Source: a virus
Direction: 5' to 3' (one strand)
IMG/VR virus record: IMGVR_UViG_3300044695_006483
Coordinates: 1-20,389 of that record
DNA: 20,389 nucleotides
Shown here: piece by piece, positions 5,090-17,829 of the stretch
Position numbering within the stretch: position 1 is the first letter of the stretch
Layout of the letters: every line of letters starts with the position of its first letter
Made by a program: the position numbers and the translations under genes
The notes under the pieces: generated by a model
Databases searched by the model: none
Told to the model about the DNA's origin: nothing
Seen by the model: only the letters and a program-made list of their open reading frames with translations

Positions 5090-8044
5090 TTAGTAAGTCC
5101 CATCGTCCACGACTCCAATGGACATGGCGCCGGTGCTGTTATCAACAAGGACTTCGGTGGATTCAAGGACCGTGCCGATTTGGCTGGTGGTGGCGATTTG
5201 GGCGCGACCCCACAGCAGCACCAAGGCATCGCGAACGTCGGTCACCCCCGTCATGTCGGGAGTGAAGTACGTGCCGTCGCTCAGAATGTCGTAGTCGTTG
5301 AAGGTGCCGGTGGCGCCAGAAACAACGGCAATCTTTGTCCAGTTGGCGCCAGTGCCTTGGCTGAGTACCCAGTCGCCCGCGGCCAGGGAGACGGTGGGGG
5401 CTGGCGTGGTGCCGGTACCAGCAGTGGTGGCAATCAGGTAGACGCCGTTGTTTTGTGGGTTGGGGGCCGTCAGCGATTGGCCGATGGTCAGGCCGGCCTC
5501 GGTGCCGTACTGGTTCAGGCTGACGACGAGGTTGGTTGAGGCGTTGTAGGTGCCGCCAAAACGCAGGTTGAGTTGGGTGGGTGAGCCATAGCCCACAAGC
5601 AGCCAGTAGCCGTTGGGGGTGGGGCTGACGGTGCCGATCCAGATGTAGGCGGAGCGGTCGGATGGGTTGACCCACCACTGGCCAGCGAACTCGGGGGTGG
5701 GGGCTGATTCGCTGACTTGGGCGATGCCGTAGTCGGCCAGTTGGGCTGCAGTAACGCTGTTGGCAGCCAGGAACTCACCAGTAAAGGTGCCGGTGGTTAT
5801 TTTGCTGGCGTCCAGGCTGGGGACATCGGCAGCGGTCAGGTTTGCGCCAGTGCTGATATGGCCTTGGGCGTCAACCGTGACTTTGGTGTAAACGCCAGGG
5901 CTGACGATGTTGGTGTGATTGAGGACGCCGCCAGCGGCAACGGTCAGGCCGGTGCCGGGTTGGATGGCGCCGTTCGTACCCGCAGCTGCAACCGGGAGGT
6001 CAGCTGCGACAAGGGCACGGAAGCCAGGCGTGGTGGCCGAGCCAGTCGTTGGGCCGGCAAAAACGGTGTTGGCGTTTTGGTTTTCGAGGCCGGTGGTGAT
6101 GGTGGCGACACCGGCTGCACTGACCGAGGCGCTGAATGTCAGCGGGGTGCCGTCGGTAAAGGCGAAGCTTTGGACGCCTGCCTGTTGTTGCCAGGCTGTG
6201 CCGTCCCAGACGTAGGTGAAGCCTGTGTTGGTGTTGAACCACTGCTGGCCTTCAAATTCACCGCTGCCGCTGGGGGCGTTGCCCGAAACAACGGTGCTGG
6301 AGTCGGCGGCCAATTTGGCGCCAGTGACGGAGGCAGTACCGAGTTCGTCGGTGGTGACTGCGCCAGTGGCGATTTTGGCGGTTGTTACCGCGTCGGTCGC
6401 GATGCTTGCGGCGAAACTGCCGGTGCCGCTGCCGGTGACATCACCAGTCAGGGTGATGGTCTGGTCGCCGGTGTTGGTGCCAGAGCTGGTGCCGCTGAAG
6501 GTGCCGCTGAAGGTGCCGTCTTGTGTGGCGAGCGTCCCAAGGCCGAGGGTGGTGCGTTGGGCGGCCGCGTCTGCGTCGTCCAGCAATGCGCGACCGGCGC
6601 TGGTGCAGGCGATTTCCTCTACGGCGCCGGCACCAGCAGAGGAGCGACCCAGCAGTTTGTCGGTGTCGGTAACATTTTGAATCTTGGCGTAAGTAACACC
6701 GCCATCGGCGACTTTTGCGGTAGTTACAGCAGAATCTGCGAGTGCTGTTGCATCGACTGCGCCAGCGGCTAGTTTGTCAACAGTAACGGCGTCGTCTGCG
6801 ATCTTTGCCGTGGTAACGGCGTTGTTAATGATTTGGCCGGTGGCAACTGCATCAACTGCAATCTGGGTTGAAGTAATAGATGCGTCGGTTAGTTTTGCAC
6901 CTGGAACGCTGCCGTCGGCCAGATTTAATTTGGCATAGGTAATTTGCGTATCAGCAATCTTAACTGCCGTTACAGCGCCATCACCGAGTTTAGTTTCGGT
7001 AACGGATTCAGAAGCCAGTTTGCCTTCAGTTACCGCTAAAGCAACAATGGAAGCTGTGTCAACTGCATCGTCCGCTAACTCCGCTGCACCAACCGCGTTG
7101 TCGGCAATAGCGTCAGCTGTGACAGAGCCGGATGCAAGCTGAGTTGCCGTTACTGCGGCGTCAGCAATCTTTGCCGTAGTGACTGAATCGTCAATTAGTT
7201 CATCTGTGCCAACACTACCGGCTGCCATTTGAGTGACAGCGATCGAATCGGTCGCAATCTTGGAAGCTGGGATGCTGCCGTCGGCCAGGTTTAACTTGCC
7301 GTAAGCAATGGTTGTATTAGCGATCTTGTCGTTGGTAACTGCGCCGGCACCGAGCTTGGTTTCGGTGACAGCGCCAGCAGCGAGCTTGGCGTCGGTTACG
7401 GCGAGGGCGGCGATGGCTGCAGTGTCAACTGCGTTGTCCGCTAGTTCCGCTGCGCCAACCGCGTTGTCGGCAATGGCTGCTGCATCGACAGCGCCAGCTT
7501 GAAATTTGCTGGAGGTGATGGTGCCGTCCGCAATCTTGGCTGCGGTAACGGCACTATCAGCGATGGCGGCCGTGCCGAGGCCAGCAGCATCGATTTTGGC
7601 TGTGGTGACTGCGTTGGCGGCAATCTTGCCGGTGGTGACCGCCAGGTCTTCGATGCCGGCGGTGGGGGCGATGACCTGCTGGAATACGCTGCCATCCCAG
7701 ACACTTAGGTATTTGGTTGTGCTGCTGACGTGGCCGCGACCTTCAAAGTTGTCGGTGCTGGGGGCCGTGGGGCCGTAGTTGATGCTGGAGTCGTTAGCTA
7801 GTTTGGCGGCTGTGATCGCGTCATCAGCCAGCGCGGTGGTGCCGAGTTTGGTGGCGCTGCTTTGGTTAAGTTTGCTGAGGTCGATGCTGGAGTTGTCGGC
7901 CAGGGTTGCGCCAGCCTCGAACAGGTCTTTGGCGCGGACTTTTTTGGTCTCGCTGGCCGAGATGTCAACGATGGGCAGCACGTCCGTTGCTGCCACGTCA
8001 GCTTCGTTGAGCTGCGTAAGCTGGGTAATGCGCTGGTCGGCCAA
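5090..8044 (-). CDS. Repetitive tail fibre protein (984 aa)
   Basis: A long fibre with a conserved cyanophage-type head (ADQRITQLTQL...DVLPIVDISASETKKVRAKDL, residues 2-40), probably the virion-attachment part. Residues about 131-460 are roughly 33 decapeptides of the form [KAE][IL]ADxAVTTA. Beyond them lie LTGDVTGSGTGSF (532-544), an AIQPGTGLTV...GVYTKVTVDAQGHIS region (693-731) and a C-terminal globular region with SGATGTFNDYDILSDGTYF (909-927). A W...YVWDGTAWQQ module recurs at about 94-124, 590-622 and 781-816. The start is TTG at 8044 with GAGG nine bases upstream; no ATG, GTG or TTG lies in frame between it and the previous gene. The repeats probably form a trimeric beta shaft. The stop abuts the 56-aa gene. 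Confidence 0.85.
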   Translation of the reverse strand: MADQRITQLTQLNEADVAATDVLPIVDISASETKKVRAKDLFEAGATLADNSSIDLSKLNQSSATKLGTTALADDAITAAKLANDSSINYGPTAPSTDNFEGRGHVSSTTKYLSVWDGSVFQQVIAPTAGIEDLAVTTGKIAANAVTTAKIDAAGLGTAAIADSAVTAAKIADGTITSSKFQAGAVDAAAIADNAVGAAELADNAVDTAAIAALAVTDAKLAAGAVTETKLGAGAVTNDKIANTTIAYGKLNLADGSIPASKIATDSIAVTQMAAGSVGTDELIDDSVTTAKIADAAVTATQLASGSVTADAIADNAVGAAELADDAVDTASIVALAVTEGKLASESVTETKLGDGAVTAVKIADTQITYAKLNLADGSVPGAKLTDASITSTQIAVDAVATGQIINNAVTTAKIADDAVTVDKLAAGAVDATALADSAVTTAKVADGGVTYAKIQNVTDTDKLLGRSSAGAGAVEEIACTSAGRALLDDADAAAQRTTLGLGTLATQDGTFSGTFSGTSSGTNTGDQTITLTGDVTGSGTGSFAASIATDAVTTAKIATGAVTTDELGTASVTGAKLAADSSTVVSGNAPSGSGEFEGQQWFNTNTGFTYVWDGTAWQQQAGVQSFAFTDGTPLTFSASVSAAGVATITTGLENQNANTVFAGPTTGSATTPGFRALVAADLPVAAAGTNGAIQPGTGLTVAAGGVLNHTNIVSPGVYTKVTVDAQGHISTGANLTAADVPSLDASKITTGTFTGEFLAANSVTAAQLADYGIAQVSESAPTPEFAGQWWVNPSDRSAYIWIGTVSPTPNGYWLLVGYGSPTQLNLRFGGTYNASTNLVVSLNQYGTEAGLTIGQSLTAPNPQNNGVYLIATTAGTGTTPAPTVSLAAGDWVLSQGTGANWTKIAVVSGATGTFNDYDILSDGTYFTPDMTGVTDVRDALVLLWGRAQIATTSQIGTVLESTEVLVDNSTGAMSIGVVDDGTY
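6665..7654 (-). repeat. Coding tandem decapeptide array with 30-nt period
   Basis: About 33 units of ten residues encode the fibre shaft, typified by KIADDAVTVD, KLAAGAVDAT and ALADSAVTTA. Units are degenerate at DNA level and keep the reading frame. Two units carry two extra residues (KLNLADGSIP and KLNLADGSVP), which mark the larger duplication. Each unit has the small-hydrophobic/polar alternation expected of a beta-structured trimeric shaft, which is an inference. This is protein-coding repeat, not a CRISPR array: there are no unique spacers. Confidence 0.85.
6743..7474 (-). repeat. 366-nt tandem duplication inside the fibre array
   Basis: Residues 191-312 and 313-434 are two in-register copies of a 122-aa block (twelve decapeptides plus a 2-aa insertion). 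Landmarks repeat exactly 122 aa apart: IADNAVGAAELAD at 191 and 313, and KLNLADGS at 250 and 372. At DNA level the shared string AACCGCGTTGTCGGCAAT recurs at 7091 and 7457, and GCTGCCGTCGGCCA at 6908 and 7274, both 366 bases apart. The start of a third copy is visible after residue 434. Unequal recombination is the likely source. Confidence 0.85.
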
Positions 8045-13745: not shown

Positions 13746-14161
13746 CAGGCGTCATCCGTCCGTGGATCTCGGATTTCGCCGGCAAGGGAGATTGCCACGT
13801 TGTAGACGCCGGGGCGAACGGACTCGACCTTCGGTGGTTCGGCGTATTCCCAGCGCAGGTTGCCGCGGGCTGCAGCGAGGCTGGTGACTTCGCCAGCAAC
13901 GTCGCTGCTCATGCCAGCTGTGGTGTTGGCGGAGAGGCGAAAGCGCTTGTTTGCTGCGGTTTGGCTGTGGTAGTGATCTAGCAGGGTGTTGACCGCGGCG
14001 TCGGCGATGTTGGTGTACTGCAGGTCGAGTTTGGCGCCGTAGGGCGAGCTGCCGAAGGTGCGGCGAGCCAGTGCGCCAGACAGCGTGCGAAAGCTGCGTT
14101 GGGGGTAGACGGCAGGGGTGAAACTGCGTGAGGAGGGAGTTAGCGCAGGAAAATTAGCCAT
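13745..14161 (-). CDS. Minor tail protein following the tape measure (138 aa; gpM-position)
   Basis: Directly downstream of the tape measure with a TAATG overlap, the position of lambda M or a distal tail protein. It begins MANFPALTPSSRSFTPAVYP and has a basic, serine-rich N-terminal 50 residues, then a beta core (GAKLDLQYTNIADAAVNTLL, about 42-61) and a C-terminal strand (PGVYNVAISLAGEIRDPRTD). I recognise the PALTPSSRxFTPG-type N-terminus from cyanobacterial phage tail modules but know no characterised member. It probably starts the tip complex at the end of the tube. It is short for a full distal tail protein (usually 200 aa or more), so a gpM analogue is the better guess. Confidence 0.65.
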   Translation of the reverse strand: MANFPALTPSSRSFTPAVYPQRSFRTLSGALARRTFGSSPYGAKLDLQYTNIADAAVNTLLDHYHSQTAANKRFRLSANTTAGMSSDVAGEVTSLAAARGNLRWEYAEPPKVESVRPGVYNVAISLAGEIRDPRTDDA

Positions 14162-16476
14162 TAGAAACCAACTCTTCGGCGGGTGTTAGGCGATTGCTGG
14201 AGGCGGTCCAAGGTCATCGTCATGCCGCGTTGGGCGCCATCGCGAGCGGCTTGGCGGCGAGTGGCAGCCATGGCCAGCTCCAGTTGATCGCGGCTGACGT
14301 ATTCCACACCGCCGATGCTGGTGGTCTCAAAACTCATATTAAGAACGGGACTTCCGCCCATTCCCGGGGCAGAACCCATGGCGGAACGGAGGTCATTGTT
14401 TGAAACCACAGAACCGCCGGTGCCAGGAACAAACAGTTCAGGGCCGCGTTCGCCGACGACGTAGGGCGAGCCGCCGGTGACGGGGCCGCCGTTGGCGCGG
14501 TAGCCAAAACCACGAGCCAAGAAAGACAAGATCCCTTGAGGATTACCGGCACCGCCACCTAATGCCCCTAAAGCTTGGGCAATGCCATACATCATCAACA
14601 TTTTGCCGATCGTGGCAAGAAGGTCAGCTCCTAGACCTTTTAACGCTTCGCCAAGGCTTTGTGTGCCAGTGGTCGCAGCATCGATTGCCCCGGCAAAAGC
14701 TCCGGCAACGGTGCTCGATATGCTTTCAAATAAATCTTTTTCCATTTGAAGCTTGGCGTTTGCGGCTTCTTGTTCTTTGGTAAGCTTTCGGATTTCGGCA
14801 ATTTTCAGACCAAGAGCCTGCCTATCTGCATCGGTTAGAACGATGCCAGCCTTCTTAAGTGTGTTCTCAATTTCCAGCAGTTGCAGCGCTTGCTTCTGGG
14901 CTTCTGTCACAGCGGCTGTTTTGATCATTTGCATGTCAAGGCCGGCTAGTGCCTCTGCAATTGCCTTTTGCTGCTGACGGTCTTGCTCCTGTGCTTTGCC
15001 CGTTTGCTCGGCGAGCAATGTATTGATCTCCAGCTCGAGCCCAAGCCTTTTTGTTTTGAGATCATTGGTAGTCTCATCAAAAGCTAAAGCTGCACGTACC
15101 TTGTCTTGCTCGGATGCGATAATTTCGGCTCGAACCTCGGCCCGCTTGGTCAGTGTTTCGTCGATAGCACCAATCTGGTATTTGATATTTAGCAGCTTCG
15201 ATGAGTATTCGACCATTCGCTGTGCCTGCTGCGGATTCTCGCTTGCGGCGGCAGTGTTCATCATCTTTGCAGTAGCCGCAGACAACCTTGCCTGTTGCTC
15301 TTGCAGCCTGCGCCCGATATTGCCGCCGATTAGATCGTCAATGTTGAGCGCTTTGCTGGGTTTCTCTTTTTCAGCCAACAGTGCTGGTGTGGCTGAAGTG
15401 GCAGCGGCAGGCTTGGCTGGTTTGGACTGTTGGCGCAGACTGCCCAGCCTCTGCTCAAGTTTTTGAGCTTCTTTTTGTAGCTGCTGCAATTCATATTTCA
15501 TGCCAGGTAATGCTGGCTGGCCGCCACCCATCACCTGCCCATCTATGCCCAAAACAGGGGCGCCAGCTTGCGTGCCAATTCCAGCAGCTTCTCCCGCCTT
15601 AATGGCTGCTTGAAGTTCTTTGATTCGAGCGCGTGTGTTGAATAATTGATCGTTGGCTTTTTTGTAATCGGGACCAGCTAATGCCTGATTGATTTTGTCT
15701 ACCACCATCGTGGCAAAATCAAGAGTCTCTTTTAGCGCAGGCTTAAGTGTCTCGCCAATAGTTTTGGCGAGCGTCTCCACACCATCCGTAAGCGTGCTCC
15801 ATTTGCCGGCCAACGTATCACTCTGCGCGATGGCGCCATCTGCATATTTGCCGCCTGCGTTAGTCAGTCGAATAACCGCAACCTCAACCGCCTCGGCTCC
15901 AATGCGGCCTTTCTCTAGCGCTTTCTGGAATTCCTCACCAGAAAGCCCATACATCTTGCGCAGTTCTTCCTGCAGCGCCACGCCGCGCTCTTGGAACTGC
16001 AGCAGTTCCTCGCCTTGCAGCCTGCCCTTGGCCTGCACTTGGCCGTAGGCAGTAACCAAGCCTTGTAGTTCGGCACCGGTAGCGCCGCTAACATCAGCCA
16101 GTCGCCTAGTAGTTTCTACAACTTTCTCTGTTTCAACGCCAAACGCTTGCAATCGTTTAGCGGAATCAATTAGCTCGGTGCTGGTGAATGGCGTTACAGC
16201 ACCAAGCTGCTGCAGCTCTTTGATAATCTGTCCGGCTTTTTCTGCACTGCCAGTTAGTACCTCAAGACTGCGGGTTTGGCTTTCTAATTCAGCCGTCTTG
16301 GCAAATACAAACTTGAATGCTTGCAGCGCCCCAAAAGCAACCGCAAGCTTGCCGGCGGCGGCGGCAACACCATTGAACGCCTTTTCTGTCGCGCCTGCCT
16401 GCGCCTGCACTTCACGCAGTTTGCTGACAGCATTGCGGCTGTCAACGTTAATCGCGACATTAGCGACGACAGACAC
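14161..16476 (-). CDS. Tail tape measure protein (771 aa)
   Basis: It sets tail length and is ejected with the DNA. The N-terminal region (about 10-250) matches the tape-measure N-terminal family: KAFNGVAAAAGKLAVAFGAL (32-51), LESQTRSLEVLTGSAEKAGQ (64-83), GAVTPFTSTELIDSAKRLQAF and QAKGRLQGEELLQFQERGVA (148-167). Charged coiled coils follow (ELQQLQKEAQKLEQRLGSLR). A hydrophobic stretch lies at about 616-642 (LATIGKMLMMYGIAQALGAL), and a C-terminal GGPVTGGSPYVVGERGPELF motif starts near 663. The start is GTG at 16476, nine bases after the gpT-like stop, with only a weak GGTAGGG upstream. At the usual 0.15 nm per residue the tail would be about 115 nm, a family rule and not a measurement. Confidence 0.93.
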   Translation of the reverse strand: MSVVANVAINVDSRNAVSKLREVQAQAGATEKAFNGVAAAAGKLAVAFGALQAFKFVFAKTAELESQTRSLEVLTGSAEKAGQIIKELQQLGAVTPFTSTELIDSAKRLQAFGVETEKVVETTRRLADVSGATGAELQGLVTAYGQVQAKGRLQGEELLQFQERGVALQEELRKMYGLSGEEFQKALEKGRIGAEAVEVAVIRLTNAGGKYADGAIAQSDTLAGKWSTLTDGVETLAKTIGETLKPALKETLDFATMVVDKINQALAGPDYKKANDQLFNTRARIKELQAAIKAGEAAGIGTQAGAPVLGIDGQVMGGGQPALPGMKYELQQLQKEAQKLEQRLGSLRQQSKPAKPAAATSATPALLAEKEKPSKALNIDDLIGGNIGRRLQEQQARLSAATAKMMNTAAASENPQQAQRMVEYSSKLLNIKYQIGAIDETLTKRAEVRAEIIASEQDKVRAALAFDETTNDLKTKRLGLELEINTLLAEQTGKAQEQDRQQQKAIAEALAGLDMQMIKTAAVTEAQKQALQLLEIENTLKKAGIVLTDADRQALGLKIAEIRKLTKEQEAANAKLQMEKDLFESISSTVAGAFAGAIDAATTGTQSLGEALKGLGADLLATIGKMLMMYGIAQALGALGGGAGNPQGILSFLARGFGYRANGGPVTGGSPYVVGERGPELFVPGTGGSVVSNNDLRSAMGSAPGMGGSPVLNMSFETTSIGGVEYVSRDQLELAMAATRRQAARDGAQRGMTMTLDRLQQSPNTRRRVGF

Positions 16477-16485
16477 AGCGCTACC

Positions 16486-16671
16486 CTACCGCCTTTGCTT
16501 CATTCTACGCTCTTGCTCCTCGTTTTGAAGCTCAAAGTAGCTGCTCCAAATCAACAGCTCCTCTAGCGTCACTTCTTGATTGAGCTTAGCCAAGCTATAA
16601 CCAAGTTCCTTTGCAACGCCAAGTTGCAGCAGCAGCAGGTTGTCTTTACTTAACTCCTTCTTTAATGCTTT
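16486..16671 (-). CDS. gpT-like extension of the tail chaperone, reached by frameshift
   Basis: This frame is +1 relative to the gpG-like gene. It is open from just after a TGA at 16672-16674 to a TAG at 16486-16488. From 16650 it encodes 54 residues, beginning SKDNLLLLQLGVAKELGYSL, continuing with LEELLIWSSYFELQ and ending ERRMKQRR. Helical (L/I)-EEL-x-x-W-x-x-YF-x-L sequences are typical of the C-terminal T part of G-T tail chaperones. The N-terminal portion has no ATG, GTG or TTG start, so independent translation is unlikely. It fills the gap exactly between the gpG stop and the tape measure start, where lambda T lies. The fusion would be about 171 aa. A base indel error in the sequence would give the same picture. 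Confidence 0.8.
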   Translation of the reverse strand, partial: KALKKELSKDNLLLLQLGVAKELGYSLAKLNQEVTLEELLIWSSYFELQNEEQERRMKQRR

Positions 16672-17002
16672 TCATGTCCAGTTGCTCTGCATCTTCTGGA
16701 TTGGTGATGATTGCAAGCATCATACCTTGCAGATCAGCGTCTAGCACTTCTTCCTTAAGTTCGGCAATTTCGCCAGCTGCAAACAAGCGCTTGCCGGTGT
16801 CGTCCATTGCCTTGGTAACCAGCAAGTTCAATGCAAAGCCGTTGGTATTGCTGCCACCAGGCATGTTCTCTGCGCGCTCGCGTTCGGCCATGGTCAATGG
16901 CGCGGAGTAAAACTCAAACACACTGCCATCGGTTAGCGTTACAACCCGCTTGGTTGGCGTCAGGTTGGCTGCTTTTTTGAGGCGTGCAAGCGCGGATGCC
17001 AT
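16646..17002 (-). CDS. Tail assembly chaperone, gpG-like (118 aa)
   Basis: A small helical protein between the tail tube and tape measure genes, the position of lambda G. The N-terminus is basic (SALARLKKAANLTPTKRVVT), followed by a beta strand pair (VTLTDGSVFEFYSAPLTMAE, residues 21-40) and a long acidic helical half with IAELKEEVLDADLQGMMLAI (79-98) and NPEDAEQLDMKS (101-112). The DG...F.F.....A.R pattern is common in tail chaperones of siphophages. It binds the tape measure and recruits tube subunits in known systems. Start ATG at 17002; no clear Shine-Dalgarno precedes it, although it follows a terminator. The last codons AAG TAA sit beside the recoding site described separately. Confidence 0.85.
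   Translation of the reverse strand: MASALARLKKAANLTPTKRVVTLTDGSVFEFYSAPLTMAERERAENMPGGSNTNGFALNLLVTKAMDDTGKRLFAAGEIAELKEEVLDADLQGMMLAIITNPEDAEQLDMKSIKEGVK
16649..16671 (-). promoter_or_regulatory. Candidate programmed frameshift site, gpG to gpT-like frame
   Basis: The shift must occur in this 23-nt interval, bounded by the upstream TGA of the new frame and the gpG TAA. Two possible signals are visible. One is AAAA at 16669-16672, where a lysyl-tRNA on AAA could re-pair perfectly in +1. The other is AAGGAG two bases before the terminal AAG-TAA, resembling the release-factor-2 (prfB) layout of an internal SD followed by a slippery codon and a stop. AAG re-pairs poorly with AGT, which weakens the second option. 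No lambda-type GGGAAAG heptamer is present. Confidence 0.55.
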
Positions 17003-17034
17003 AAAAATTGGTGAGTTAGGTGTACTCTAAGCAC

Positions 17035-17060
17035 AAAAAAGCCCCAGCGCAAGCCGGGGC
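17035..17060 (-). terminator. Intrinsic terminator after the major tail tube gene
   Basis: Minus strand GCCCCGGC, loop TTGC, then GCTGGGGC makes an 8-bp stem with one G-U pair, followed directly by six T. It begins 10 nt past the tube stop. Strong termination here would make the tube mRNA more abundant than chaperone and tape measure mRNA, matching the copy numbers needed. Read-through must occur, or a promoter must lie in the 32 nt before gpG, where I see no convincing one. Confidence 0.85.
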
Positions 17061-17070
17061 CATTTTGCTA

Positions 17071-17829
17071 TCAGGCACTGGTGCTGAAATCAAACGTTGG
17101 CACGCCAGCTGGACGGAAGGTAATCTCCACCTGCTGGGCATCGTCAGGGTTGACATTCAGGCTGGCTGAGATCAGCACTGCATCCATGGCAATACTGCGG
17201 CTTAGCGCCTCAGTCCCCTGCTTGTCGGTGTACAGCTTGAATGCGCAGCCCACCTGCTGACGCTGCAGCACGTCTTCCACCATGCGGTTAGACAGGGCGG
17301 CATCTTCGTTGGTCACGTAGACGGTAGCAGTGCCATTGCCATCGGCAAAACCAGGGATGTAAGCGCGGAAGGGTGCGTACTGCCCAGCGGTCTGGCCGAT
17401 GGTTGTGACATCGATCTCGCTACGGCTGATCTCAAAAGACCAAGACTGCACTTGCCCAACGGCAGCAAAATCGGCGTAGTACACCTCAAATTCGTTGGGT
17501 GCTACTGCTGTCCCGTCGTCGGTGATGGCCAAGATGGTACCACCAGCAGCAGTAGAAACTGTCAGCGCGCCAGTAGCAGCTGTGTAGGACAGCACGTAGT
17601 AGGTGGTAGCTGCATCAATGGGAGCCGGCAGCGTGCCAGAGCCGGAGCCGCCTGTCTGGCTGTTGATGACGCGGAACTTGACAGGATCACCGGCCTTGAA
17701 GTTCAGGTACGGCTGAACGGTGATGACATCAGTGCTGGCATTGACGCCGGATTCGGGAAAGTTGCCGTTAGTACCGGCAGGTTTGTAGTAAAGGGCGCCG
17801 GACGTACCGGACAGAACAGTAACAGCCAT
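17071..17829 (-). CDS. Major tail tube protein (252 aa)
   Basis: The shaft subunit. It lies between the tail terminator and the chaperone, the canonical place. N-terminal SGALYYKPAGTNGNF (10-24) leads into an inserted beta domain at about 40-110 (FKAGDPVKFRVINSQTG and TTYYVLSYTAATGALTVS), then the tube core: QVQSWSFEISRSEIDVTTIG (126-145), ADGNGTATVYVTNED (162-176), LQRQQVGCAFKLYTDKQG (188-205) and SASLNVNPDDAQQVEITF (221-238). The W-S-F-E-I-S strand and G-T-A-T strand are typical of siphophage tube proteins, and gpV-type tubes can carry extra domains facing outwards. Start ATG at 17829 with no obvious Shine-Dalgarno. An intrinsic terminator follows the stop, suggesting separate high-level expression. 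Confidence 0.85.
   Translation of the reverse strand: MAVTVLSGTSGALYYKPAGTNGNFPESGVNASTDVITVQPYLNFKAGDPVKFRVINSQTGGSGSGTLPAPIDAATTYYVLSYTAATGALTVSTAAGGTILAITDDGTAVAPNEFEVYYADFAAVGQVQSWSFEISRSEIDVTTIGQTAGQYAPFRAYIPGFADGNGTATVYVTNEDAALSNRMVEDVLQRQQVGCAFKLYTDKQGTEALSRSIAMDAVLISASLNVNPDDAQQVEITFRPAGVPTFDFSTSA

Follow-up and report, generated by a model that had tools for sequence, protein, structure and literature searches.

AUG_AAA_AGC as a candidate programmed +1 frameshift site between tail chaperone genes G and T in a virus record and its relatives

How would a ribosome reach a tail chaperone frame that has no start codon of its own? In lambda (gpG and gpGT) and HK97, tail chaperones are made with a -1 frameshift, at GGGAAAG in the case of lambda. 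The window, by which we mean the whole 20,389-base virus record analysed here, carries its tail genes on the minus strand in the order tail terminator, major tail protein, G, T and tape measure, and its T lies in the +1 frame relative to G. The locus therefore raises the question of where, and in which direction, ribosomes would leave G. The features that bear on it are listed below.

17071..17829, minus strand: major tail protein gene, upstream of G (PHROG 158, E 6.5e-9; 81% identity with phage KBS-S-2A)
16646..17002, minus strand: G, zero-frame product of 118 aa, from ATG to AAG TAA (open reading frame; PHROG 20784, E 3.6e-29, a family of unknown function)
16667..16675, minus strand: candidate recoding site AUG_AAA_AGC, with the P-site Lys codon AAA at 16672..16670 and the fourth A at 16669 (AAA_AG in 132/132 distinct +1 junctions)
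16672..16674, minus strand: T-frame stop TGA abutting the slip codon on its 5' side, with one base in common; upstream limit of the shift, conserved in place
16654..16659, minus strand: AAGGAG, not conserved between slip and stop
16646..16648, minus strand: G stop TAA, eighth codon past the slip codon; position and identity vary among relatives
16486..16668, minus strand: T extension in the +1 frame, 60 codons and TAG (frame reading; T profile; tblastn, 77% identity to KBS-S-2A)
14161..16476, minus strand: tape measure gene, downstream of T, with a GTG start at 16476 (Pfam PF20155 TMP_3, 81.6 bits; several PHROG tape measure families)

The G and T frames and their setting

G and T are flanked by the genes for the major tail protein and the tape measure, the placement of a tail chaperone. 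Searches of G against Pfam and NCBIfam gave no family match, and a sequence profile search of the PDB gave no match. For an AlphaFold model of G built from a 46-row alignment (pLDDT 87.4), the top PDB structure was the HK97 tail assembly chaperone 2ob9_B (Foldseek E 2.8e-3, prob 1.00, TM 0.48-0.52). Comparison with 2ob9 gave moderate scores (VIA Z 8.2, rmsd 4.7, 102 aligned residues), YqbN (3klu) ranked second (Z 6.9), and several of the viral models matched are named tail assembly chaperone. Taking these moderate scores together with the place of G between the two flanking genes, we assigned G as a tail assembly chaperone. As far as the chaperone-like modelled fold indicates, G-T is a tail assembly chaperone pair of the lambda/HK97 type, with a predicted fusion product. 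The likeness lies in gene order, in the fold of G and in a start-less T in another frame joined near the end of G; the difference is that the shift here would be +1, at AAA_A, with the zero-frame stop some codons downstream.

Several other features of the record were observed. The tape measure (16476..14161) appears mosaic: residues 1-295 resemble those of the -1 phage S-H1 (58% over 331 columns), whereas residues 575-696 resemble KBS-S-2A (60%). A 984-aa open reading frame (8044..5090, minus strand) contains many alternating AVTTAKIADDAV-like repeats and probably encodes a tail fibre. In the gap that separates G from the major tail protein gene, at 17061..17040 on the minus strand, lies a strong hairpin followed by a T run that resembles an intrinsic terminator (RNA fold of 17066..17025, -19.4 kcal/mol, z -2.98); it could make the chaperone and the genes beyond it less transcribed than the major tail protein gene. 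All Rfam matches at this hairpin were sub-threshold, NsiR1 being the best, and terminator-like sites across the region showed no excess (10 versus 8.1 in shuffles). The host is likely a cyanobacterium, since KBS-S-2A, the closest isolate, was propagated on Synechococcus WH7803 and a marine relative sits in a Prochlorococcus assembly; as a hint to the contrary, another relative sits in a gammaproteobacterial bin.

The +1 frame is open from TGA 16674..16672 to TAG 16488..16486, nearly reaching the tape measure GTG at 16476. Its first ATG, GTG or TTG is the TTG at 16593, within the conserved domain, with none upstream of it, so the T frame does lack a start of its own, as the original prediction held. 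The -1 frame past the G stop reads VKTTCCCC... and terminates after about 26 codons, confirming its description as Cys-rich and early-stopping. That prediction had also given T 54 codons and limited the shift to about 23 nt. The extension is real but comprises 60 codons if the shift takes place at AAAA, since T would then begin ahead of the G stop, at GCA 16668..16666; the shift window is indeed short but spans about 26 nt (16671..16646). The positions of AAAA (16672..16669), AAGGAG (16659..16654) and AAG TAA (16651..16646) were correct.

Relatives were drawn from five viral-contig scans, phage-record searches and one genome-contig scan, giving 297 scored loci (including five repeat fetches) that, with the window, make 298; L087 was fetched but unscored. 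Three viral-contig scans contributed the best 80 of 353, the best 80 of at least 593 and the best 80 of 568 relatives, and the other two contributed all 38 and all 13 (2 of the 13 already in the set). Among the 298 junctions examined with the T profile, T lay at +1 relative to G in 183, at -1 in 110 and in frame in 0, with 5 unscorable, and the net +1 arrangement originally proposed for the window therefore recurs widely, the expression of a fusion being predicted. We left out loci with no G stop (L033, L053 and L124), contigs ending in T (L099 and L103) and repeat fetches (L112-L116), and removed exact duplicates of the junction region (up to 390 nt), which reduced the +1 junctions from 178 to 132 (the window being L001) and the -1 junctions from 110 to 91. 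The +1 loci form three clades: clade A, that of the window (48 loci); clade M, which is marine (75 loci); and a third of 9 loci. In the downstream part of T in clade A, mean diversity at +1-frame codon positions 1, 2 and 3 was 0.224, 0.097 and 0.455, variation of the coding type. Judged from the alignments, the G-T arrangement exceeds chance, being retained in all 132 distinct +1 junctions with coding-type variation in T.

The slip site and competing readings

The candidate recoding site, ATGAAAAGC, occurs once in the record. In all 132 distinct +1 junctions, AAA_A stands in register within the stop-bounded window and is followed by G, the A-site codon being AGC in 125, AGT in 4, AGG in 2 and AGA in 1; the AAAA run, one of the candidate elements originally singled out, is thus conserved in homologues. 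From background, four identical bases in register would be expected at about 13%, 4% and 8% in clades A, M and D, a comparison that carries no p-value because the sequences are related. AAA_A is the sole perfect four-base slip in 127 junctions (5 have a second four-base run), and in 55 of the 132 the shift window is just two codons, AAA AGN, where AAA alone is able to re-pair. The slip Lys codon is the only codon free of synonymous change among 40 conserved-residue codons in clade A (48 loci) and among 45 in clade M (75 loci). Counting against this, the upstream clade M codon columns -10, -9 and -6 are likewise synonymously invariant, although their residues are less conserved.

The +1 frame past the slip is conserved in clade A (Ala 48/48, Leu 45/48, Lys 48/48), and the second zero-frame codon encodes seven different residues. 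However, the first and third zero-frame codons of the overlap are conserved too (Ser 48/48 and Lys 45/48 in clade A), which counts against a distinction, and overlap diversity by codon position failed to distinguish the frames in 32 loci (0.191/0.194/0.229 for +1; 0.200/0.191/0.194 for zero). A T-frame TGA or TAA lies directly 5' of the slip codon in 131 of the 132 junctions, the exception (L216) having CCA. Our guess is that this stop may block ribosomes that slip earlier. The G stop lies 1-9 codons past the slip codon and is TAA in 86, TGA in 44 and TAG in 2.

Because AAA_A is universal, the Lys codon invariant, the shift window in many relatives only two codons and AAGGAG not conserved, AUG_AAA_AGC is the most likely site. 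We conclude that AUG_AAA_AGC at 16675..16667 (minus strand) is very probably a site of programmed +1 frameshifting, from which expression of the fusion would follow. Most ribosomes would complete G (118 aa), and a minority would shift at AUG_AAA_AGC, where peptidyl-tRNA-Lys in the P site is predicted to move +1 from AAA to the overlapping AAA, ahead of the G stop. With the tRNA-Lys so shifted, the next codon would be GCA rather than AGC, and translation in the +1 frame would yield a 171-aa G-T fusion. We infer production of the fusion, its ratio to G and P-site slippage in preference to out-of-frame decoding by tRNA-Ala. By analogy with lambda, G may coat the tape measure, and recruitment of tail tube protein would fall to the T part of the fusion. 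Counting against this reading, +1 slippage in vitro on consecutive AAA codons is described as minor, at <5% of ribosomes (PMC9207662); a low +1 level may be enough for the phage, which is our assumption.

Slippage by -2, as reported for phage Mu (PMC2628397), would give an identical frame. Here the tRNA-Lys would have to re-pair on UGA where the context is AUG, UUG or CUG, or, with two of three pairs, on UAA where it is UUA; otherwise tRNA-Ser would have to pair with AAA. No such pairing is a full match. Re-pairing on UGA or UAA would be needed in 131 of the 132 junctions, whereas +1 pairing is perfect in every one, and we regard -2 slippage as very unlikely.

In the known prfB layout, a Shine-Dalgarno (SD)-like sequence lies close to a +1 site at a stop codon. 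The window recalls this layout in that AAGGAG lies two bases ahead of AAG TAA, and the original prediction noted the resemblance and speculated that chaperone ratios might respond to release-factor activity. In such a mechanism an internal SD, together with slow decoding at UAA, would drive a ribosome waiting on AAG into the +1 frame at the end of G. Among homologues neither element is conserved: just 14 of the 132 junctions, all in the window's clade, have AAGGAG in the stretch from slip to stop, and AAG TAA ends G in 16/48, 1/75 and 0/9 loci of the three +1 clades. The AAA-to-stop distance varies from 1 to 9 codons, so that the slip codon does not adjoin the stop, and re-pairing of AAG on AGU would be poor, while that of AAA on AAA is perfect. 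Such a mechanism would also leave the conserved AAAA and the +1-frame residues ALK unexplained. Since neither the G stop, variable in kind and distance, nor AAGGAG is conserved, the prfB analogy (the prfB frameshift is described in passages of PMC3711429 and PMC10885494) and the release-factor response both lose their basis, and we consider this mechanism extremely unlikely here.

Equally improbable is that T is translated independently, whether from a start in its own frame or by reinitiation after the G stop. An ATG, GTG or TTG does occur within the first 17 T-frame codons in 53 of the 132 loci, but the other 79 have none, and no distinct +1 junction (0/132) has a T-frame start with an SD-like site within the first 12 T codons. 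Moreover, there is conservation of the +1-frame residues beside the slip, which precede the G stop. This absence of SD-served starts in homologues favours frameshifting, as does the recurrence of the same junction in 132 distinct sequences, by which a chance frame-restoring indel is rejected. RNA polymerase slippage or a sequencing or assembly indel, to both of which A runs can give rise, is the least probable reading of all, because the run is short (the window has 4 A's and UUA contexts give 5; the GeneTack paper, PMC3711429, names runs of >7 A for transcriptional slippage) and the same junction recurs in all these distinct sequences.

Codon usage and candidate stimulators

A rare-codon pause can be rejected in clade A, where AGC is common (28.2 per 1000, rank 52 of 61; 29.9 in the window) beside the Ala codons GCG (25.0), GCA (39.5) and GCT (40.6), so a hungry-codon account of the slippage fails there. 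It is possible in clade M, where AGC is used at 5.7 per 1000, compared with 43.9 for GCT and 43.4 for GCA, the zero-frame A-site codon being rarer than the +1 codon.

We found no stimulator common to all +1 clades. RNAalifold, applied downstream of the slip in clades A and M, gave no shared stem in clade M and nothing better than shuffles in clade A; the fold of 16610-16680 in the window was likewise no better than shuffles (z 0.75), and the three Rfam matches up to E 1 in 16400-17100 did not reach family gathering scores. Upstream, the fold of region -30..-1 was equalled in stability by synonymous resampling in 0/60 cases for A, 0/60 for M, 25/60 for D, 38/60 for K and 60/60 for S. A common 5' stem in clade A was rejected despite 0/60, as its stems vary between sub-lineages. 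SD-like scores against the synonymous null gave 0/200 for M, 5/200 for A (marginal), 88/200 for D, 48/200 for K and 200/200 for S.

Clade M carries an SD-like element, [A/G]GGRGGT, at -30..-23 of the slip codon, scoring -11.15 versus -5.11 under synonymous resampling and persisting across amino-acid changes. Between it and the slip codon, at -16..-7, lies a 3-bp hairpin (GGC-UAAA-GCC) whose three pairs are present in 36/36 distinct rows (37-row subset of the 75), with one compensatory change common to five rows that is probably a single event. The loci with these elements, 30 to 7 nt before the slip codon, are L083, L126-L205 and L298; the window's clade has no comparable element. A 22-nt SD spacing matches neither the short spacing of prfB nor the longer one of dnaX.

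We tentatively propose, as a possibility somewhat short of even, that these phages use a distinct +1 signal: [A/U/C]U[G/A]_AAA_AGC with a T-frame stop abutting it on the 5' side, needing neither a hungry codon nor a stop next to it nor structure on the 3' side. Phages of the marine lineage would back it with the 5' hairpin and a strong SD-like element 22 nt upstream, beyond known SD-frameshift spacings, and in sister phages it would have been swapped for (or by) a -1 heptamer with the fusion kept the same.

Change of shift direction among relatives

The homologous cyanophage KBS-S-2A is close to the window (81% identity in the major tail protein, 62% in G and 67% in the tail terminator), yet its T lies in the -1 frame behind A_AAA_AAC. 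The fusion products of the window and KBS-S-2A can be aligned (DVKKLKQELKKDNLL versus DMKALKKELSKDNLL), as can those of the other -1 relatives (L088-L108 and L111). A classical heptamer lies within 45 nt of the stop in 88 of the 91 distinct -1 junctions (A_AAA_AAC in 85, A_AAA_AAA in 2 and GGGAAAG in 1), whereas the window, whose T is +1, does not have the lambda-type arrangement of X_XXY_YYZ with a -1 T. The -1 relative S-2L has CCCAAAG further upstream than 45 nt. In P-HS2 (L085) and L297 the search of the 45 nt before the stop showed no heptamer of this kind; they read GCA AAG GAA TCC TAA and GAC CCC AAG AAC TAA, in which A_AAG and C_CCC may be the slip sites.

A first tree was built with 70 representatives and a second with 68, omitting L086 and L125 as long branches. 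The tree of 68 fusion proteins requires three direction changes, as does the 5-95% range of bootstrap trees. It places the window's clade, represented by L001, as the sister group of three -1 phages, one of them KBS-S-2A (support 100/85, bootstrap not fully settled). A tree in which the nine KBS-type -1 rows form a single clade was not rejected (p-AU 0.239). That the window's +1 clade is nested among -1 phages therefore has bootstrap support but is unproven, and the change may have run either way. Sequence comparison suggests that the fusion is retained while the shift direction changes between close relatives. Given opposite directions with alignable fusions in such relatives, selection appears to keep the fusion and not the mechanism.

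Review and tool papers describe tail chaperones as usually shifting by -1 (PMC5009743, PMC10885494 and PMC3711429). Forward shifts in phage structural genes are also described there: the Listeria phages PSA, A118 and A500 shift by +1 in tsh and, in the gene for the capsid protein, by +1 or -1 (PMC5009743). Those phages resemble ours in having a +1 shift in a structural gene whose direction differs between relatives, but there the ribosome slips on a proline codon, CCC, ahead of a stop or a pseudoknot, and the product is a lengthened capsid or tail shaft protein and no tail chaperone. The tail chaperone of halovirus HSTV-2 is given as very likely +1 (PMC5009743), and PRFect lists 350 forward slippery-site cases in SEA-PHAGES genomes (PMC10885494). 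These cases are likewise inferred forward shifts, and the PRFect forward motif also has four identical bases, but the passages describing them name no AAA_AGC site. PRFect further demands a +1 A-site codon commoner than the zero-frame codon, which is generally not the case in clade A. Within the literature covered, beyond which most subscription papers lie, we found neither a +1 tail chaperone with an AAA_AGC site nor a switch of direction within this family. Thus +1 tail chaperones are already known in kind; what looks new against these sources is the AAA_AGC site, together with its invariance and the change of direction between close relatives.

Tail chaperone frameshifting is among the most widespread recoding events and is described nearly always as -1. 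T is without annotation in the KBS-S-2A record, and a search restricted to -1 would overlook +1 cases. Here natural variants pin a +1 site to a few bases, with an A-site codon that is common in one clade, and these phages therefore offer a natural series for probing what drives +1 slippage in bacteria.
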